From an uncultured Bacteroidales bacterium (lineage in GTDB: Bacteria; Bacteroidota; Bacteroidia; Bacteroidales; WCHB1-69): a stretch of DNA of 47,461 bases. Both the position numbers and the translations under genes were made by a program. Below the pieces are notes generated by a model that was not told the DNA's origin, did not search any database, and saw only the letters and a list, made by a program, of their open reading frames with translations. Location of the stretch: the NCBI GenBank assembly GCA_900316305.1, contig ONCM01000035.1, positions 1 to 47,461 of the forward strand, given 5' to 3'. Positions within the stretch are counted from its first letter, which is position 1; each line of letters starts with the position of its first letter. Of the stretch, positions 7,455-27,490 are shown piece by piece.

Positions 7455-7486
7455 TTGTAGAGACGCACGGCCGTGCGTCTCTACAA
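7455..7486. repeat. Family A palindrome between purB and upp
   Basis: Perfect 32-bp inverted repeat with half-site TTGTAGAGACGCACGG. It lies 10 bases after the purB stop and, as RNA, forms a loopless or very tight hairpin that could act as a processing or termination structure. Same GTAGAGACG...CGTCTCTAC arms as the copies at 14579, 14666, 29625, 32890 and 32930. Confidence 0.85.
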
Positions 7487-22573: not shown

Positions 22574-23191
22574 TCATAGCGCGTAGATGGTTTGCTGCAA
22601 CGCTTCCAGGAACCGTGCGGCATCCCCGCCATCCATCTGCACGTGATGGAACTGGAAGGAGACGGGCAGGGTGGTCTTGAACCAGCATTTGCGGTACTTG
22701 CCCCACATCACCATTGGGTTGAGGAACTTGTCGGTGTATTGGTTGACAATGCAGTCGAGCTCGGTCTGAATCATAGCTGACGTGCCGACAATCATGTAAC
22801 CATCGAGGATGCTGCTTTGGCATTTTTCCGCCACTTTGGTCGTTAATTGCTGGTAATCGCGGTTGAACTGTTGAATATCGGTTGTGAAGGGAATGTCGCA
22901 GGAGTTGATGCCGCCTTTGCAATTGCGCACCACAACGTTGATGGCAATTTGGTCGTATTGGTACAGCTTTCCGTTCTCCGGCAGCAAATGGAGTTCCTTC
23001 GTTTCGCTGGCGGTCTTGCCGATACACCAGCACATCAGCGTGTTGAACTTGATGTTTTGCTTTTTGATGAGTCTCAGCAAGTGGCTGACGTTCATCGTCT
23101 TCACCAGTGTCACCATAGGCATGGGGGCGCTCATCCACATCTCGAATGCAAAGGCCCTGTTGGTCTCTTTGGGGTTGATTTCGTGTTTCAT
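22574..23191 (-). CDS. Chloramphenicol-acetyltransferase-like protein (CAT fold)
   Basis: 205 residues from MKHEINPKETNR, set by the promoter at 23215-23222. The CAT catalytic motif is intact as FQFHHVQMDGGDAARFLEALQ (HHxxxDG, second His as the base). KFNTLMCWCIGKTASE and a trimer-interface-like region also fit the family. It uses acetyl-CoA to acetylate an acceptor. CAT-like proteins are common in commensal Bacteroidales and many have no proven action on chloramphenicol, so drug resistance should not be assumed. Confidence 0.85.
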   Translation of the reverse strand: MKHEINPKETNRAFAFEMWMSAPMPMVTLVKTMNVSHLLRLIKKQNIKFNTLMCWCIGKTASETKELHLLPENGKLYQYDQIAINVVVRNCKGGINSCDIPFTTDIQQFNRDYQQLTTKVAEKCQSSILDGYMIVGTSAMIQTELDCIVNQYTDKFLNPMVMWGKYRKCWFKTTLPVSFQFHHVQMDGGDAARFLEALQQTIYAL

Positions 23192-23214
23192 CTTTAAAAC
23201 TAAGATTAGGGCGG

Positions 23215-23272
23215 CAAAAATACGCAAAAAATGGGGATTGGTTTTTGTTTGGAGGAAAAAGTTGTATTTTTG
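23215..23272. promoter_or_regulatory. Divergent -7 elements for the CAT-like gene and the transposase
   Basis: Minus-strand TATTTTTG (23222 to 23215) serves the CAT-like gene. Plus-strand TATTTTTG (23265-23272) points at the transposase. Its transcript would start near 23280 and carry the whole 23289-23435 hairpin array in a leader of about 200 nt. Confidence 0.65.
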
Positions 23273-23288
23273 CGGCGGGGACACTTTG

Positions 23289-23435
23289 GTTGCGTTGGCA
23301 ACGCAACATACGGGGACTTTGGTTGCGTTAACAACGCAACATACGGAACTTTGGTTGCGTTAACAACGCAACATACGGAACTTTGGTTGCGTTAACAACG
23401 CAACATACGGAACTTGGTTGCGTTAACAACGCAAC
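23289..23435 (+). repeat. Palindrome array A: five copies in the transposase leader
   Basis: Five units at 23289, 23322, 23354, 23386 and 23417. Each has a 19-bp palindrome (8-bp arms GTTGCGTT/AACGCAAC, 3-nt loop) followed by ATACGG. The first loop is GGC and the next four are AAC. Unit spacing is 31-33 bp. All copies read in the same direction, as judged by the asymmetric ATACGG tail. Confidence 0.95.
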
Positions 23436-23477
23436 ATACGGAACTGGCGACTAACGAACAAAATAAAACTTAAAACT

Positions 23478-24791
23478 ATGAAAAGAGAAACATTTGAAGC
23501 ACAGAAAGCATTTGCTGGAGAGAAGAAGCCCTCCATGCTACGACGTTGTGTGGGGCATGACTACACAGGCCGACAGATTTACATGATTACGATGGTGACG
23601 GAGGGGCGCAGACCGCTTTTTGGAGAGGTGGTGGGCAGAAGCGATGCACCAAAGGGCAGTGAGGAGGAACCGCGTATTATTCTTTCAGAGCTTGGAAAGC
23701 GCGTGGCTGACGAATGGTGGGCGGCATCGGTACACCATCCCGAAATTGAGGTTGTTGCTTTACAGATGATGCCCGACCATTTGCACGGAATTCTTTTTGT
23801 TAAGGAGAAGATGGAGAAACCGCTTGGAATGGCGTTGCGCGGGTTTAAGCAGAGCTGCAATAAGCATTATAGGGAGCTAGTTTTGGGGACGAAAGTTGCG
23901 TTAACAACGCAACATACGGAACAGGGATTGGGGACGAAAGTTGCGTTAACAACGCAACATACAGAACTGGGATTGGGGACGAAAGTTGCGTTAGCAACGC
24001 AACATACGGAACTGGGATTGGGGACGAAAGTTGCGTTAACAACGCAACATACGGAACTGGGATTGGGGACGACAGTTGCGTTAGCAACGCAACATACGGA
24101 ACTGGGGTTGGGGACGAAAGTTGCGTTAACAACGCAACATACGGAACTGGGATTGGGGACGAAAGTTGCGTTAACAACGCAACATACGGAACTGAGGCAG
24201 ACGAAACGAGACCGAAGGGGGGAGGACCGAAGCCATGGGATGCTTTTCGCTCGTGGTTACAATGACAGGTTGCTGCTTCGTAAAGGACAGCTTGATGCTT
24301 GGAGGCACTACTTGGCAGACAATCCACGTCGTTTGTTAATGAAACGCGAGCATCCTGACTTGTTCCGAGTGCAGCGCAATGTGGAGGCCGTTGGCATTAC
24401 CTTTTCAGCCATTGGAAACCGTCATCTGCTTGATTTCCCTGTTAGGTTGCAGGTGCAATGTTCCCGCAGTCTTACGGAAAAAGAGATAAAAGCCAAAGTG
24501 GCGGAATATTTGGCTGCGGCTAGAGAAGGAGCGGTGTTGGTGTCGCCTGCCATCTCGCCAGGGGAGAAAGCTATTATGCGGGCTGCTTTTGATGAGGGGT
24601 TGCCGTTGATTTACTTACAAGAAAACGGTTTTACTGATCTTGCGAAGCCGGGTGGCAAGCGTATGGATGCCTGTGCCAAGGGACAGTTGCTTATCCTTGC
24701 TCCTTGGGAACATCACAATGAGAAGCTTGCTATTCGTCGGGGGCAGTGCCTTGAACTGAATGAGATTGCGAGACGGATTTGCGAGGGGTGA
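23478..24791 (+). CDS. RAYT-like Y1 (IS200/REP-type) transposase with seven in-frame repeat insertions
   Basis: 437 residues. The N-terminal domain is a tyrosine HUH transposase: RQIYMITMVTEGRRPLFGE, then MPDHLHGILFV (metal-binding His101 and His103), FKQSCNKHY, and the catalytic tyrosine in GYNDRLLLRKGQLDAWRHYL (Tyr261). Between them, residues 136-240 are seven tandem 15-residue units LGTKVALTTQHTELG, encoded by a palindrome array. Without them the His-to-Tyr distance would be about 53 residues, normal for the family. Residues about 290-437 form an extra C-terminal domain with a Rossmann-like LVSPAISPGEKAIMRAAFD and LIYLQENGFTD, faintly DprA/LOG-like. The family mobilises short palindromes as single strands. 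No IS ends are seen. Confidence 0.88.
   Translation: MKRETFEAQKAFAGEKKPSMLRRCVGHDYTGRQIYMITMVTEGRRPLFGEVVGRSDAPKGSEEEPRIILSELGKRVADEWWAASVHHPEIEVVALQMMPDHLHGILFVKEKMEKPLGMALRGFKQSCNKHYRELVLGTKVALTTQHTEQGLGTKVALTTQHTELGLGTKVALATQHTELGLGTKVALTTQHTELGLGTTVALATQHTELGLGTKVALTTQHTELGLGTKVALTTQHTELRQTKRDRRGEDRSHGMLFARGYNDRLLLRKGQLDAWRHYLADNPRRLLMKREHPDLFRVQRNVEAVGITFSAIGNRHLLDFPVRLQVQCSRSLTEKEIKAKVAEYLAAAREGAVLVSPAISPGEKAIMRAAFDEGLPLIYLQENGFTDLAKPGGKRMDACAKGQLLILAPWEHHNEKLAIRRGQCLELNEIARRICEG
23895..24183 (+). repeat. Palindrome array B: seven 45-bp units inside the transposase gene
   Basis: Palindromes start at 23895, 23940, 23985, 24030, 24075, 24120 and 24165, with an exact 45-bp period and the same orientation as array A. 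Loops are AAC except in units 3 and 5 (AGC). The longer period compared with the 31-33 bp of the intergenic arrays keeps the reading frame. Confidence 0.97.
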
Positions 24792-24798
24792 GATGGGA

Positions 24799-24882
24799 GT
24801 TGCGTTGGCAACGCAACAAACGGGGACTTTGGTTACGTTGGCAACGCGGAATATGGGATTTCAGTTGCGTTGGCAACGCAAC
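24799..24882 (+). repeat. Palindrome array C: three copies after the transposase
   Basis: Units at 24799 (GGC loop), 24832 (degenerate, GTTACGTT arm and GCGGAATATGGG in place of the right arm) and 24864 (GGC loop). The last copy overlaps the 3' end of the minus-strand membrane gene. The degenerate block GCGGAATATGGGATTTCAG is shared with array D. Confidence 0.9.
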
Positions 24883-25268
24883 ATACGGAACGCCACTACT
24901 GCCTCTACTAGGCCGAGCAAGAAATAGAGGTTGCTGATGGCGTTGAAGCCCCAAACCCACCATTCGAGGACGATCCAGAGCATGAGGATGATGCCGCAGA
25001 TGAGAACTGCCCATTGTGCGAGCGGGTGCTTCTTGAAAAGCAGGTAGGCCGCCATCAATTGGGTGATACCGTTCAGGAATAGCAGCACGAAGCCCGAGGG
25101 GATGAAGTTCCGGAAGAAGATGTCCGGCCAGGGCATTTTCGCACGTAGCAGCTCTAACAGTGGCTCGCCACCCCAAGCTACGCCTGTAGGGTCAATCCAC
25201 ATCATCACGGCACCGCCTACTGCGCCGATGCCGATGAAAAGGGTTAGGATTTTTTCGAAGTTGATCAT
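24861..25268 (-). CDS. Small unknown membrane protein with a repeat-encoded C-terminus
   Basis: 135 residues, four transmembrane segments (ILTLFIGIGAVGGAVMMW, FFRNFIPSGFVLLFLNGI, WAVLICGIILMLWIVLEW, LYFLLGLVEAVVAF). The overall look is of a small DoxX/DUF-type membrane protein, not assigned. The final residues RMLRCQRN and the stop come from the antisense reading of an array C palindrome, so the original C-terminus has been altered or replaced. No promoter element precedes it; it may be read from the gene at 26000 through array D. Confidence 0.72.
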   Translation of the reverse strand: MINFEKILTLFIGIGAVGGAVMMWIDPTGVAWGGEPLLELLRAKMPWPDIFFRNFIPSGFVLLFLNGITQLMAAYLLFKKHPLAQWAVLICGIILMLWIVLEWWVWGFNAISNLYFLLGLVEAVVAFRMLRCQRN

Positions 25269-25286: not shown

Positions 25287-25430
25287 GTTGCGTTGGCAAC
25301 GCGGAATATGGGATTTCAGTTGCGTTAACAACGCAACATACGGGACTTGGTTGCGTTAACAACGCAACATACGGGACTTGGTTGCGTTAACAACGCAACA
25401 TACGGAACTTGGTTGCGTTAACAACGCAAC
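25287..25430 (+). repeat. Palindrome array D: five copies between two membrane genes
   Basis: Units at 25287 (GGC loop, right arm decayed), 25319, 25350, 25381 and 25412 (all AAC loop), spaced 31-32 bp. The first unit with its GCGGAATATGGGATTTCAG tail matches the degenerate unit of array C. The remaining bases of the 234-bp gap carry no recognisable gene. Confidence 0.95.
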
Positions 25431-25502
25431 ATACTGAACGTTGTTAACGATGGCAAACACACAATGTGGAGATTTATTTTCATTTAGTGGAAATAAGAAT
25501 GG

Positions 25503-26027: not shown

Positions 26028-26046
26028 CATAAAATGCGGGACTTTG

Positions 26047-26191
26047 GTTGCGTTGGCAACGCAACATACGGGACTTTGGTTGCGTTAACAACGCAACATA
26101 CGGGACTTGGTTGCGTTAACAACGCAACATACGGGACTTGGTTGCGTTAACAACGCAACATACGGGACTTTGGTTGCGTTAACAACGCAAC
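26047..26191 (+). repeat. Palindrome array E: five copies
   Basis: Units at 26047 (GGC loop), 26079, 26110, 26141 and 26173 (AAC loop), spaced 31-32 bp, same orientation as the other arrays. They fill most of the gap between the 26000 promoter and the stop of the erythromycin-esterase-like gene at 26207. Confidence 0.95.
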
Positions 26192-26206
26192 ATACGGGAC
26201 GGTTAC

Positions 26207-27490
26207 TTACTCCTCTCGTACCGCGATTGGGTGCGCGTTTGTCACGATAATCATGCCGTTGTAGAGTATTGCGGGGCAGTCCCAGTCGCGGTAGGATTGC
26301 GGGAAGATGGCCATGAGCGGGGAGTAACCTTCGCCCACGTCACCCAGCCAGGTGTATTCGGAGAGCCGTGAGGATAGTGTAGTGCTTTCGGGTATGGAGG
26401 AGAAGTCTAGCCAGCAGACCTCGTATCCGCATTGTTTGGCGGCTTCGGCCAGCGGGTTTTTTGAGAAGAAAGTGTGATTACTGCGTTTGCCTCGTTTTCC
26501 TTTCGGCAGACTGACCTTCGCCTTGCAAAAATCCGTACCGATGGCGAAATAGGCCTTGCCGAGCTCGTTTGCCAGCAGGGCACCCATCGCTTTCCCAAGC
26601 GTCCCATAATCGTGGCGGCGTTCGATATGGCCGTTGTGTGCGGAAATGAAAATGCACGCGTTGCCACGGGCTTCCTCCTGTTCCATGATCCAGTGTGTGT
26701 TCACGAACATCAGCGAGTCTCGCAACGCATTCCCTTTCAACATGTCGTCAATCACCTTCCCCAAGGCAATATTTTGGAGCAGAATATCCGCAAAATGCAC
26801 TGCCTGCGCCGTTGTCGAGTCGTTCAACTGCAGCAAATCCTGCCGTACTTTTTCTATCACTTTTGCTTTTTGGTTGGCAGTGTAGGAGGATGAGTATTTG
26901 TCTTCTGACTTATCCCACAACTTTTCCAATTCTGCCGTTGGCACCGCGTATGTCTTGGCGGCTTCTAATAGATACTTGTAATTCTTTTCGTAAATTTGCA
27001 TGTCGAAGCCGTAGAAACGAAGGTCTTCGCCTTCTTTCGCCGTCATATTGTATTGGCGCATCCATTCAATGAGGTGCGCCATCTGTTCAGTCCTGTAGAT
27101 GGGGAAGCCTATAGCTGCAGCCGCCTCCTGCGCCGTGCCCGCGCCGCCGTGGATGTAACGGTTGACCGCCTCGCAGCCACCATAGTCGCCCTCCAGCGCA
27201 AACGCCCGCACACCGTACTTCTCGACCATCAGCTTGAAAACATCCAGTTTGAGTTGCTGGAACTCGGCATTGCCATGTGTGGCCTCACCCAGTGCAATAA
27301 TGCGGACAGAATCGGGGATGGTGATATCCGAAACATTACCTGCATACGTTGCAAATTCCTTTGTGTCAATTGGTTCTACTTTTTTTAAACCTCCAAAGTA
27401 AGCATGGAAATACAGAACAAAAATGGCGCTGAAGAACAACATCAGCAGAATCCAGCGAAAAATGCGTTTTTTTGAAGCTTTACTTTTCAT
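26207..27490 (-). CDS. Erythromycin-esterase-family protein
   Basis: 427 residues with an N-terminal membrane anchor or signal (about 9-30, IFRWILLMLFFSAIFVLYF). Family motifs: RIIALGEATHGNAEFQ with the conserved Glu and His, FALEGDYGGCEAVNRYI, LRFYGFDMQ and FISAHNGHIERR. EreA-like hydrolases open macrolide lactones, but many Bacteroidota homologues are exported and of unknown substrate. It overlaps the glycerate kinase gene by four bases (ATGA type), indicating coupling. The gene ends directly beside palindrome array E. Confidence 0.87.
   Translation of the reverse strand: MKSKASKKRIFRWILLMLFFSAIFVLYFHAYFGGLKKVEPIDTKEFATYAGNVSDITIPDSVRIIALGEATHGNAEFQQLKLDVFKLMVEKYGVRAFALEGDYGGCEAVNRYIHGGAGTAQEAAAAIGFPIYRTEQMAHLIEWMRQYNMTAKEGEDLRFYGFDMQIYEKNYKYLLEAAKTYAVPTAELEKLWDKSEDKYSSSYTANQKAKVIEKVRQDLLQLNDSTTAQAVHFADILLQNIALGKVIDDMLKGNALRDSLMFVNTHWIMEQEEARGNACIFISAHNGHIERRHDYGTLGKAMGALLANELGKAYFAIGTDFCKAKVSLPKGKRGKRSNHTFFSKNPLAEAAKQCGYEVCWLDFSSIPESTTLSSRLSEYTWLGDVGEGYSPLMAIFPQSYRDWDCPAILYNGMIIVTNAHPIAVREE

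Follow-up and report, generated by a model that had tools for sequence, protein, structure and literature searches.

To our knowledge, what RAYTs do for their host and how they are themselves controlled is an open question. The described systems closest to the gene analysed here are the TnpAREP proteins of subclass 2.4, for which passages of Quentin et al. (2018, PMC6006769) report REPs inside the tnpAREP genes, in frame and between the HuH and Y motifs, and suggest that these in-gene copies have little impact on activity; the signature of class 2 TnpAY1 is given there as Y---NP. REPs have also been described within the coding sequence of repair and other genes (in passages of PMC3733652), whereas in the present case the REP sits in its cognate transposase and its site is conserved. 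Like our gene, the E. coli TnpAREP/RAYT (4ER8) combines an HUH-Y1 fold and the Y---NP motif with REP hairpins beside the gene, but its structure counts 165 residues, its REPs are dispersed through the genome, and the passages devoted to it mention no REP inside the gene. The TnpA proteins of the IS200/IS605 family (IS608 and ISDra2) are among the best structural matches of our model; contrary to them, the protein carries Y---NP rather than Y---Q, and it has no near-identical copies in its genome, where the other proteins matched are 33-43% identical. Finally, DprA and ShosA share the fold of its C-terminal domain, which is here fused to an HUH-Y1 domain.

The kind is therefore already known, since in-gene REPs of tnpAREP genes are in print (PMC6006769, in its passages on subclass 2.4), and the original prediction, which knew of no described example, does not stand on this point. 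Both cases, as far as those passages go, have an in-frame REP in their own transposase gene, placed in the HuH-Y interval and variable in length and sequence, both have REPs flanking the gene, and both belong to Bacteroidetes. What sets our case apart from the subclass 2.4 of these passages is a different subfamily (DHLH, LFARGYND without the W, and YLADNP, or YLxDNP, against NH[IFV]H, WQ and YIxNNP), a different loop (alphaC-beta4 in the model, against beta3-alphaC), a DprA-like C-terminal domain, REPs which in this genome are confined to the locus and whose foot is CCGTMT instead of GT[AG]G, and signs of a constraint acting at the DNA level. A literature search of open-licence PMC papers returned no description of this subfamily or of synonymous constraint on an in-gene REP, nothing on point for a RAYT-DprA fusion, the architecture coupling an HUH domain to a DprA-like one, and nothing on point for REPs in Prevotella. 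In-gene REPs are also absent from passages of PMC12306157 (RepRanger) and PMC8266576 (REP recognition).

The transposase and the REPs around it

The gene lies at positions 23478-24791 on the plus strand of the window, that is, of the whole 47,461-nucleotide stretch of DNA that was analysed. Judged by sequence and structure model, the predicted 437-residue product is a RAYT/TnpAREP-like transposase with an HUH motif, a Y1 fold and flanking REP-like palindromes, as originally proposed. It matches the NCBIfam model NF047646 (REP-associated tyrosine transposase) at an E-value of 1.6e-7 and 31.3 bits, under the 80-bit cut-off; with a threshold of E ≤0.1, the same model matches all 48 aligned relatives, the best of them at 4.8e-12. 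With E ≤1, Pfam Y1_Tnp is found in 35 of these 48 members, its best E-value being 1.6e-4, and the window protein is without a match. Pfam and PDB sequence searches with the window protein gave no match, nor did a PDB profile search with five sequences or PADLOC. Structural comparison of an AlphaFold2 model built on the 48 sequences gave Foldseek matches to IS608, ISDra2, 4ER8 (2.9e-2), ShosA (8.8e-6) and HpDprA (5.6e-5); the model of a compact relative, L074, has the same matches (5.9e-4, 8.7e-6 and 5.3e-5 for the last three).

The HUH motif, H101-L102-H103, is encoded at 23778-23786 (plus strand). D100, H101, H103, Y278, N282 and P283 are invariant among the 48 aligned members, and the tyrosine motif reads Y278-LAD-N282-P283. 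Tyr278 (24309-24311, plus strand), in helix 271-291 of the model, is thus the likely nucleophile of a Y---NP motif because of its invariance. Tyr261, the catalytic residue first put forward, is rejected: it falls outside the residues conserved in 90% of the 48 members, and Y278 sits one helix after it in the model. The DprA-like (Rossmann) domain covers residues about 299-436 (24372-24785, plus strand), a boundary which is our reading of the model, Foldseek having given no aligned ranges. It is placed at the C terminus because of the order along the chain and of DprA sequence matches that are weak and at noise level (E of 0.35, and 0.055 in one of four domains); PF02481 matches one of the four domains at 13.1 bits, below its cut-off of 29.6 bits. 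By eye, paralogues at contig C33 of the window genome and at L037-L048 have a similar kind of C-terminus.

Between the HUH motif and Tyr278 lies the in-gene array, made of seven 45-bp units (23883-24197, plus strand) that add 105 residues, 136-240, while the reading frame stays open from 23478 to 24791. As expected from the original prediction, the array keeps its place between the two motifs even though the tyrosine itself has moved. TRF detects a 45-bp period at 23883-24194 (6.9 copies, 95% matches); the units had been called exact, but they differ from their consensus at 1, 1, 1, 0, 3, 0 and 2 positions, and the longest exact repeat within the array is 65 bp. Each unit holds a palindrome GTTGCGTT-N3-AACGCAAC (seven at 23895-24183, with a CCGTAT-like foot on the minus strand), whose loop is AAC in five and AGC in two. 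The array was also said to lie inside the catalytic core. This is true only on the gene map; in the model, whose N- and C-terminal parts score well, residues 143-245 have a pLDDT below 50 and fall after helix 116-136 and ahead of strand 262-265. The compact relative has an equal layout, with residues 141-155 under 50, so that in both models the insertion sits in a disordered loop. This is called here the alphaC-beta4 loop, the names of the two bounding elements being our reading of the models.

Next to the gene, the same palindrome recurs in intergenic arrays (TRF and palindrome search): five perfect copies upstream (23283-23461), at 31-33 bp spacing and with the last palindrome ending 42 bp ahead of the start codon; two perfect copies and a degenerate one directly 3' of the stop codon (24798-24883); and two downstream intergenic arrays of four (25319-25434) and five (26037-26200) perfect copies. 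The identity of the repeats inside and beside the gene is therefore confirmed, as is the shorter period outside (31-33 bp, with one 65-bp gap after the stop codon) compared with 45 bp inside. The whole window genome (3.28 Mb, 99 contigs) contains 23 perfect copies, all within 23.3-26.2 kb of the window contig; five lie upstream of the gene, seven inside and eleven downstream, the 16 outside the gene being within 1.5 kb. The wide dispersal typical of TnpAREP REPs is thus not seen in this genome. The genomes of three full orthologues in the genus (G020, G025 and G031) likewise have exact copies on the contig of their RAYT gene. Among 36 genomes scanned (22 of the genus), the palindrome is present in four, namely the window genome, G020, G018 and G019. 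In a separate count, 14 genomes other than that of the window have 1-11 exact copies each, a single one in three and two to eleven in the rest. In three more distant relatives (G064, G069, G070), low numbers of copies are distributed among five or six contigs, and the restriction to the locus therefore characterises only the window genome and its close kin. The contigs of G018 and G019 (at the ends of L051 and L052) stop at the REP array or inside the RAYT gene; assemblies may therefore be prone to break at loci of this kind.

Near the RAYT gene, the minus strand carries genes for a CatA-like O-acetyltransferase (family 2; 22574-23284) and an erythromycin-esterase-family protein (26207-27490). 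Further away, 12788-12840 matches the Rfam Acido-Lenti-1 RNA with 43.1 bits.

The palindrome at the same site across the family

Whether the insert is unique had been raised as a question. It is not: among 60 relatives searched, the three full orthologues all carry palindromes at the site of the window gene, with different spacings and in a partly different frame, and so do most genes of the wider family. For the latter, 282 relatives were confirmed by scanning a genome collection described as covering 84,980 species, and the best 80 of them, chiefly Bacteroidales MAGs according to their titles and in many cases from the rumen, were retained. Addition of the window gene and L035 gave 82 genes; not counted were L034 and L036, which share their contigs with L057 and L080, and the paralogue families L037-L050. 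The members are not independent, as they include near-identical pairs (L059/L060, L118/L121, L117/L126) and two genes of one genome (L091, L099).

A perfect palindrome with an arm of at least 8 is found in the alphaC-beta4 loop of 71 of these 82 genes (the best 80 of 282 relatives with the window gene and L035), whereas 1.21 would be expected if the same loop peptides were recoded synonymously according to the codon usage of these genes. The remaining coding sequence, four times more DNA, has such a palindrome in seven of the 82. One of three main stem types occurs in 66 sampled loops, and the site is constant across the tree of the 82 genes. As most of the sampled relatives retain a palindrome in this position at the level of DNA, it looks more like a durable functional element of the gene than like a recent accident. 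It is nevertheless dispensable: among the 11 genes without an arm of at least 8, L101, L102/L112 and L104/L111 have lost the palindrome from open genes, which makes at least three lineages, and L086, L120, L126, L061, L089 and L083 have decayed or shifted versions.

Tandem growth at this site is less general but recurrent. TRF reports arrays in 27 of the 82 loops, a count that includes weak arrays and arrays without the palindrome, and none in the other 55; the periods range from 9 to 60 bp and are divisible by three in 26 of the 27. The window array has the highest TRF score, while the nearest relative in the set, L053 (91% over the core, dS 0.36), has a 3 x 27 bp array. Spacings between palindromes are divisible by three for 10 of 11 in-gene cases against 3 of 23 outside genes, a comparison that is weak alone, six of the 11 (six of the ten divisible) coming from the window array. 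For the coding sequence other than the loop, dN/dS could be computed in 12 of 14 pairs and lies at 0.04-0.13, dS being above 1 or saturated in nine of the 14. Both observations agree with the proposal that selection maintains an intact product. Given that the neighbouring intergenic copies, spaced by 31-33 bp, are also in tandem, growth appears common to genic and intergenic settings, with the reading frame filtering the genic survivors.

Constraint on the DNA and competing readings

The peptide VALxTQQ or VALxTQP is encoded in 47 of the 82 sampled loops. In these genes, where the choice by peptide fixes amino-acid but not codon identity, the stem codons are GTT in 45, GCG in 47, TTG in 47, ACG in 46 and CAA in 46; elsewhere in the same genes, GTT, GCG, TTG and ACG make up 10-23% of the codons for their amino acid. 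The central codon is CCA in 18, GCA in 10, ACA in 10, TCA in 8 and CTA in one; the variable base is thus the one that alters the amino acid, whereas the synonymous positions of the stem are nearly fixed. Out of 322 six-codon windows, synonymous difference reaches its minimum on the palindrome (0.028), the off-palindrome windows having a mean of 0.497 (sd 0.077) and a minimum of 0.284. The in-gene palindrome is thus constrained at the level of DNA (or mRNA) more than at that of the peptide. By eye, imperfect stems are too scarce for wobble pairs to discriminate between hairpins of RNA and of DNA.

In a clade of 14 genes, 13 of 584 synonymous comparisons differ within the seven codons of the palindrome, against 26% outside. 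In 10 of 13 genomes of this clade with an in-gene palindrome, no second copy within 1 mismatch is found in the assembly, the single hit having been checked by hand against contig ranges to be the in-gene copy. The resident palindrome can therefore be the sole copy found in an assembly; L104 and L111 have lost the in-gene copy, and their genomes contain none. In the ten single-copy genomes, the stem is preserved in the six codons, while variation occurs at 174 of the 253 other codons with an invariant amino acid (codon columns being taken as independent for the P values of this test); of the six codons, one is variable in two further clades that were tested. Since no other copy was found in these ten genomes, the upkeep of the palindrome looks like selection and not copying alone, in an argument that covers one clade of possibly incomplete MAGs at a 1-mismatch limit. 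Some function of the resident palindrome is likely from this DNA-level constraint, which is silent on the sevenfold array itself.

The reading we favour, and hold to be rather probable, is that of a REP-associated HUH/Y1 transposase of Bacteroidales with its cognate palindrome inside the gene as a built-in site, the array being a byproduct of slippage or recombination. The resident palindrome would be a binding or substrate site of its own enzyme, maintained by selection acting on the DNA or the mRNA; because it travels with the gene, the enzyme would always have a cognate hairpin at hand. Through binding of ssDNA or mRNA, the enzyme would probably limit or mark its own gene, and we infer a self-regulatory or self-substrate role. 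In the window genome, a 45-bp version has grown to seven copies while purifying selection on the enzyme continued; this growth is most likely due to slippage or recombination at the resident hairpin, with no separate adaptation, and the array would survive because it is in frame. Conserved synonymous sites in the in-gene palindrome, and a stem common to it and the flanking copies, point to a system with a cis-acting element. Synonymous recoding would reach such a putative element and leave the protein untouched.

The match between in-gene and flanking copies counts both for the favoured reading and for its main rival. Four stem types are found both in genes and beside them, which offers material for a study of enzyme-REP co-evolution. 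One of the four lies upstream in 26 of the 82 sampled loci and downstream in 16, and the flanking copies favour certain places. The nearest upstream one is about 46-97 bp ahead of the start codon in 25 of the 26 (after a correction of 3 bp, since most genes were measured from a start lying 3 bp inside the true one); the nearest downstream one follows the last sense codon by 4-37 bp in 15 of the 16. Among 34 loci with both an in-gene and a flanking palindrome, the in-gene stem is identical to that of at least one flanking copy in 31, 24 with the commonest stem type and 7 with three others by our own tally; two of the remaining three differ by one base, and one (L115) was scored on a chance loop palindrome. 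Another 37 loci have an in-gene palindrome without a close flanking one. In L063 and L058, nested among GTTGCGTT genes in the tree of 82, the stem has changed from GTTGCGTT to GTTGCGAC on both arms. Orientation differs between clades, and within loci it agrees in all 36 oriented pairs of minus-orientation genes (7 loci, with 16 pairs from the window) and in 16 of the 20 pairs of plus genes.

Such agreement in stem and orientation, together with the variation of orientation between clades, would also follow if the loop were simply permissive and REPs from the flanks, or transferred ones, repeatedly inserted into it or converted the in-gene copy, leaving it always fresh-looking and functionless. 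Scattered copies in several relatives could serve as donors, close relatives differ in their arrays (7 x 45 in the window, 3 x 27 in L053, at dS 0.36), the loop is disordered in both models, and the little impact on activity suggested in the passages of Quentin et al. (PMC6006769) on subclass 2.4 goes in the same direction. However, recurrent overwriting by other REPs is made less likely by the single-copy genomes of one clade, in which synonymous sites are fixed with no second copy within 1 mismatch, and it sits poorly with a site that is constant across the tree; we consider it unlikely, while still the main rival of a built-in site.

A further step from the favoured reading would make the array itself adaptive, its copy number tuning expression or enzyme activity in the manner of a coding minisatellite, which corresponds to the self-regulating design of the original prediction. 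Its length indeed varies between close relatives while staying in frame, and its RNA folds better than shuffled versions (-101.7 kcal/mol, the shuffles having a mean of -61.9; z -10.4). Yet strong folding is trivial for palindromes, any array of which would show it, and 55 of the 82 sampled loops are without a TRF tandem array; as the intergenic copies next door also grow in tandem, a general slippage process suffices, and a tuning role seems improbable. It is more doubtful still that the array or its copy number is an artefact of assembly. The 99 contigs of the assembly and the contig ends of G018 and G019 would speak for it, but the units have private differences, the longest exact internal repeat is 65 bp, and independent assemblies of relatives have arrays at the same place. 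Least credible of all is that selection keeps the peptide VALxTQQT, frequent as its core is in the sampled loops, with the palindrome as a by-product: this is ruled out by synonymous stem positions that are nearly fixed around a variable, amino-acid-changing central base, by other clades that read VAVAQQH, VATQSQ or CVNNATYGT and retain the palindrome, and by units read in two frames (72 and 5).

A second REP system in the same genome

The window genome also has a canonical double-foot REP, GTAGAGACG...CGTCTCTAC, with 185 matches, a few of them overlapping. Four of these REPs are in the window, starting at 7457, 14667, 32890 and 32930. A second, distantly related RAYT, L032 (contig C66, 655-3906), has the motifs NHLH, WQ and YIENNV, near but not identical to those of subclass 2.4. 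A double-foot REP is found in the extension of its ORF ahead of the likely start, and a copy minus one foot lies just past HUH, where it is read as ETQNFASL. Among the relatives of L032 in the genus (20 loci fetched), 5 of the 10 parsed have a palindrome between HUH and Y. L032 is thus a subclass 2.4-like case, of the kind described in the passages of Quentin et al. (2018, PMC6006769). The window gene and L032 each have their own REP in the gene, but it is a different REP in a different loop; this parallel counts in favour of the built-in site.

It may be, and this broader proposal is put forward tentatively, that some RAYT genes carry an in-frame cognate REP selected as a DNA or mRNA hairpin, by which the enzyme would sense or limit its own gene and take its substrate along at each transfer; two distantly related RAYTs of one genome would have done so, in two loops and with two REPs, the site having here expanded to a seven-copy array. 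In another RAYT family of the genus, at two loci with no further palindromes of arm at least 8 within 1.2 kb, the palindrome ATCGACCGAATTCGGTCGAT lies in the HUH-to-Tyr region, at codon 151 of L048 and codon 125 of L050.
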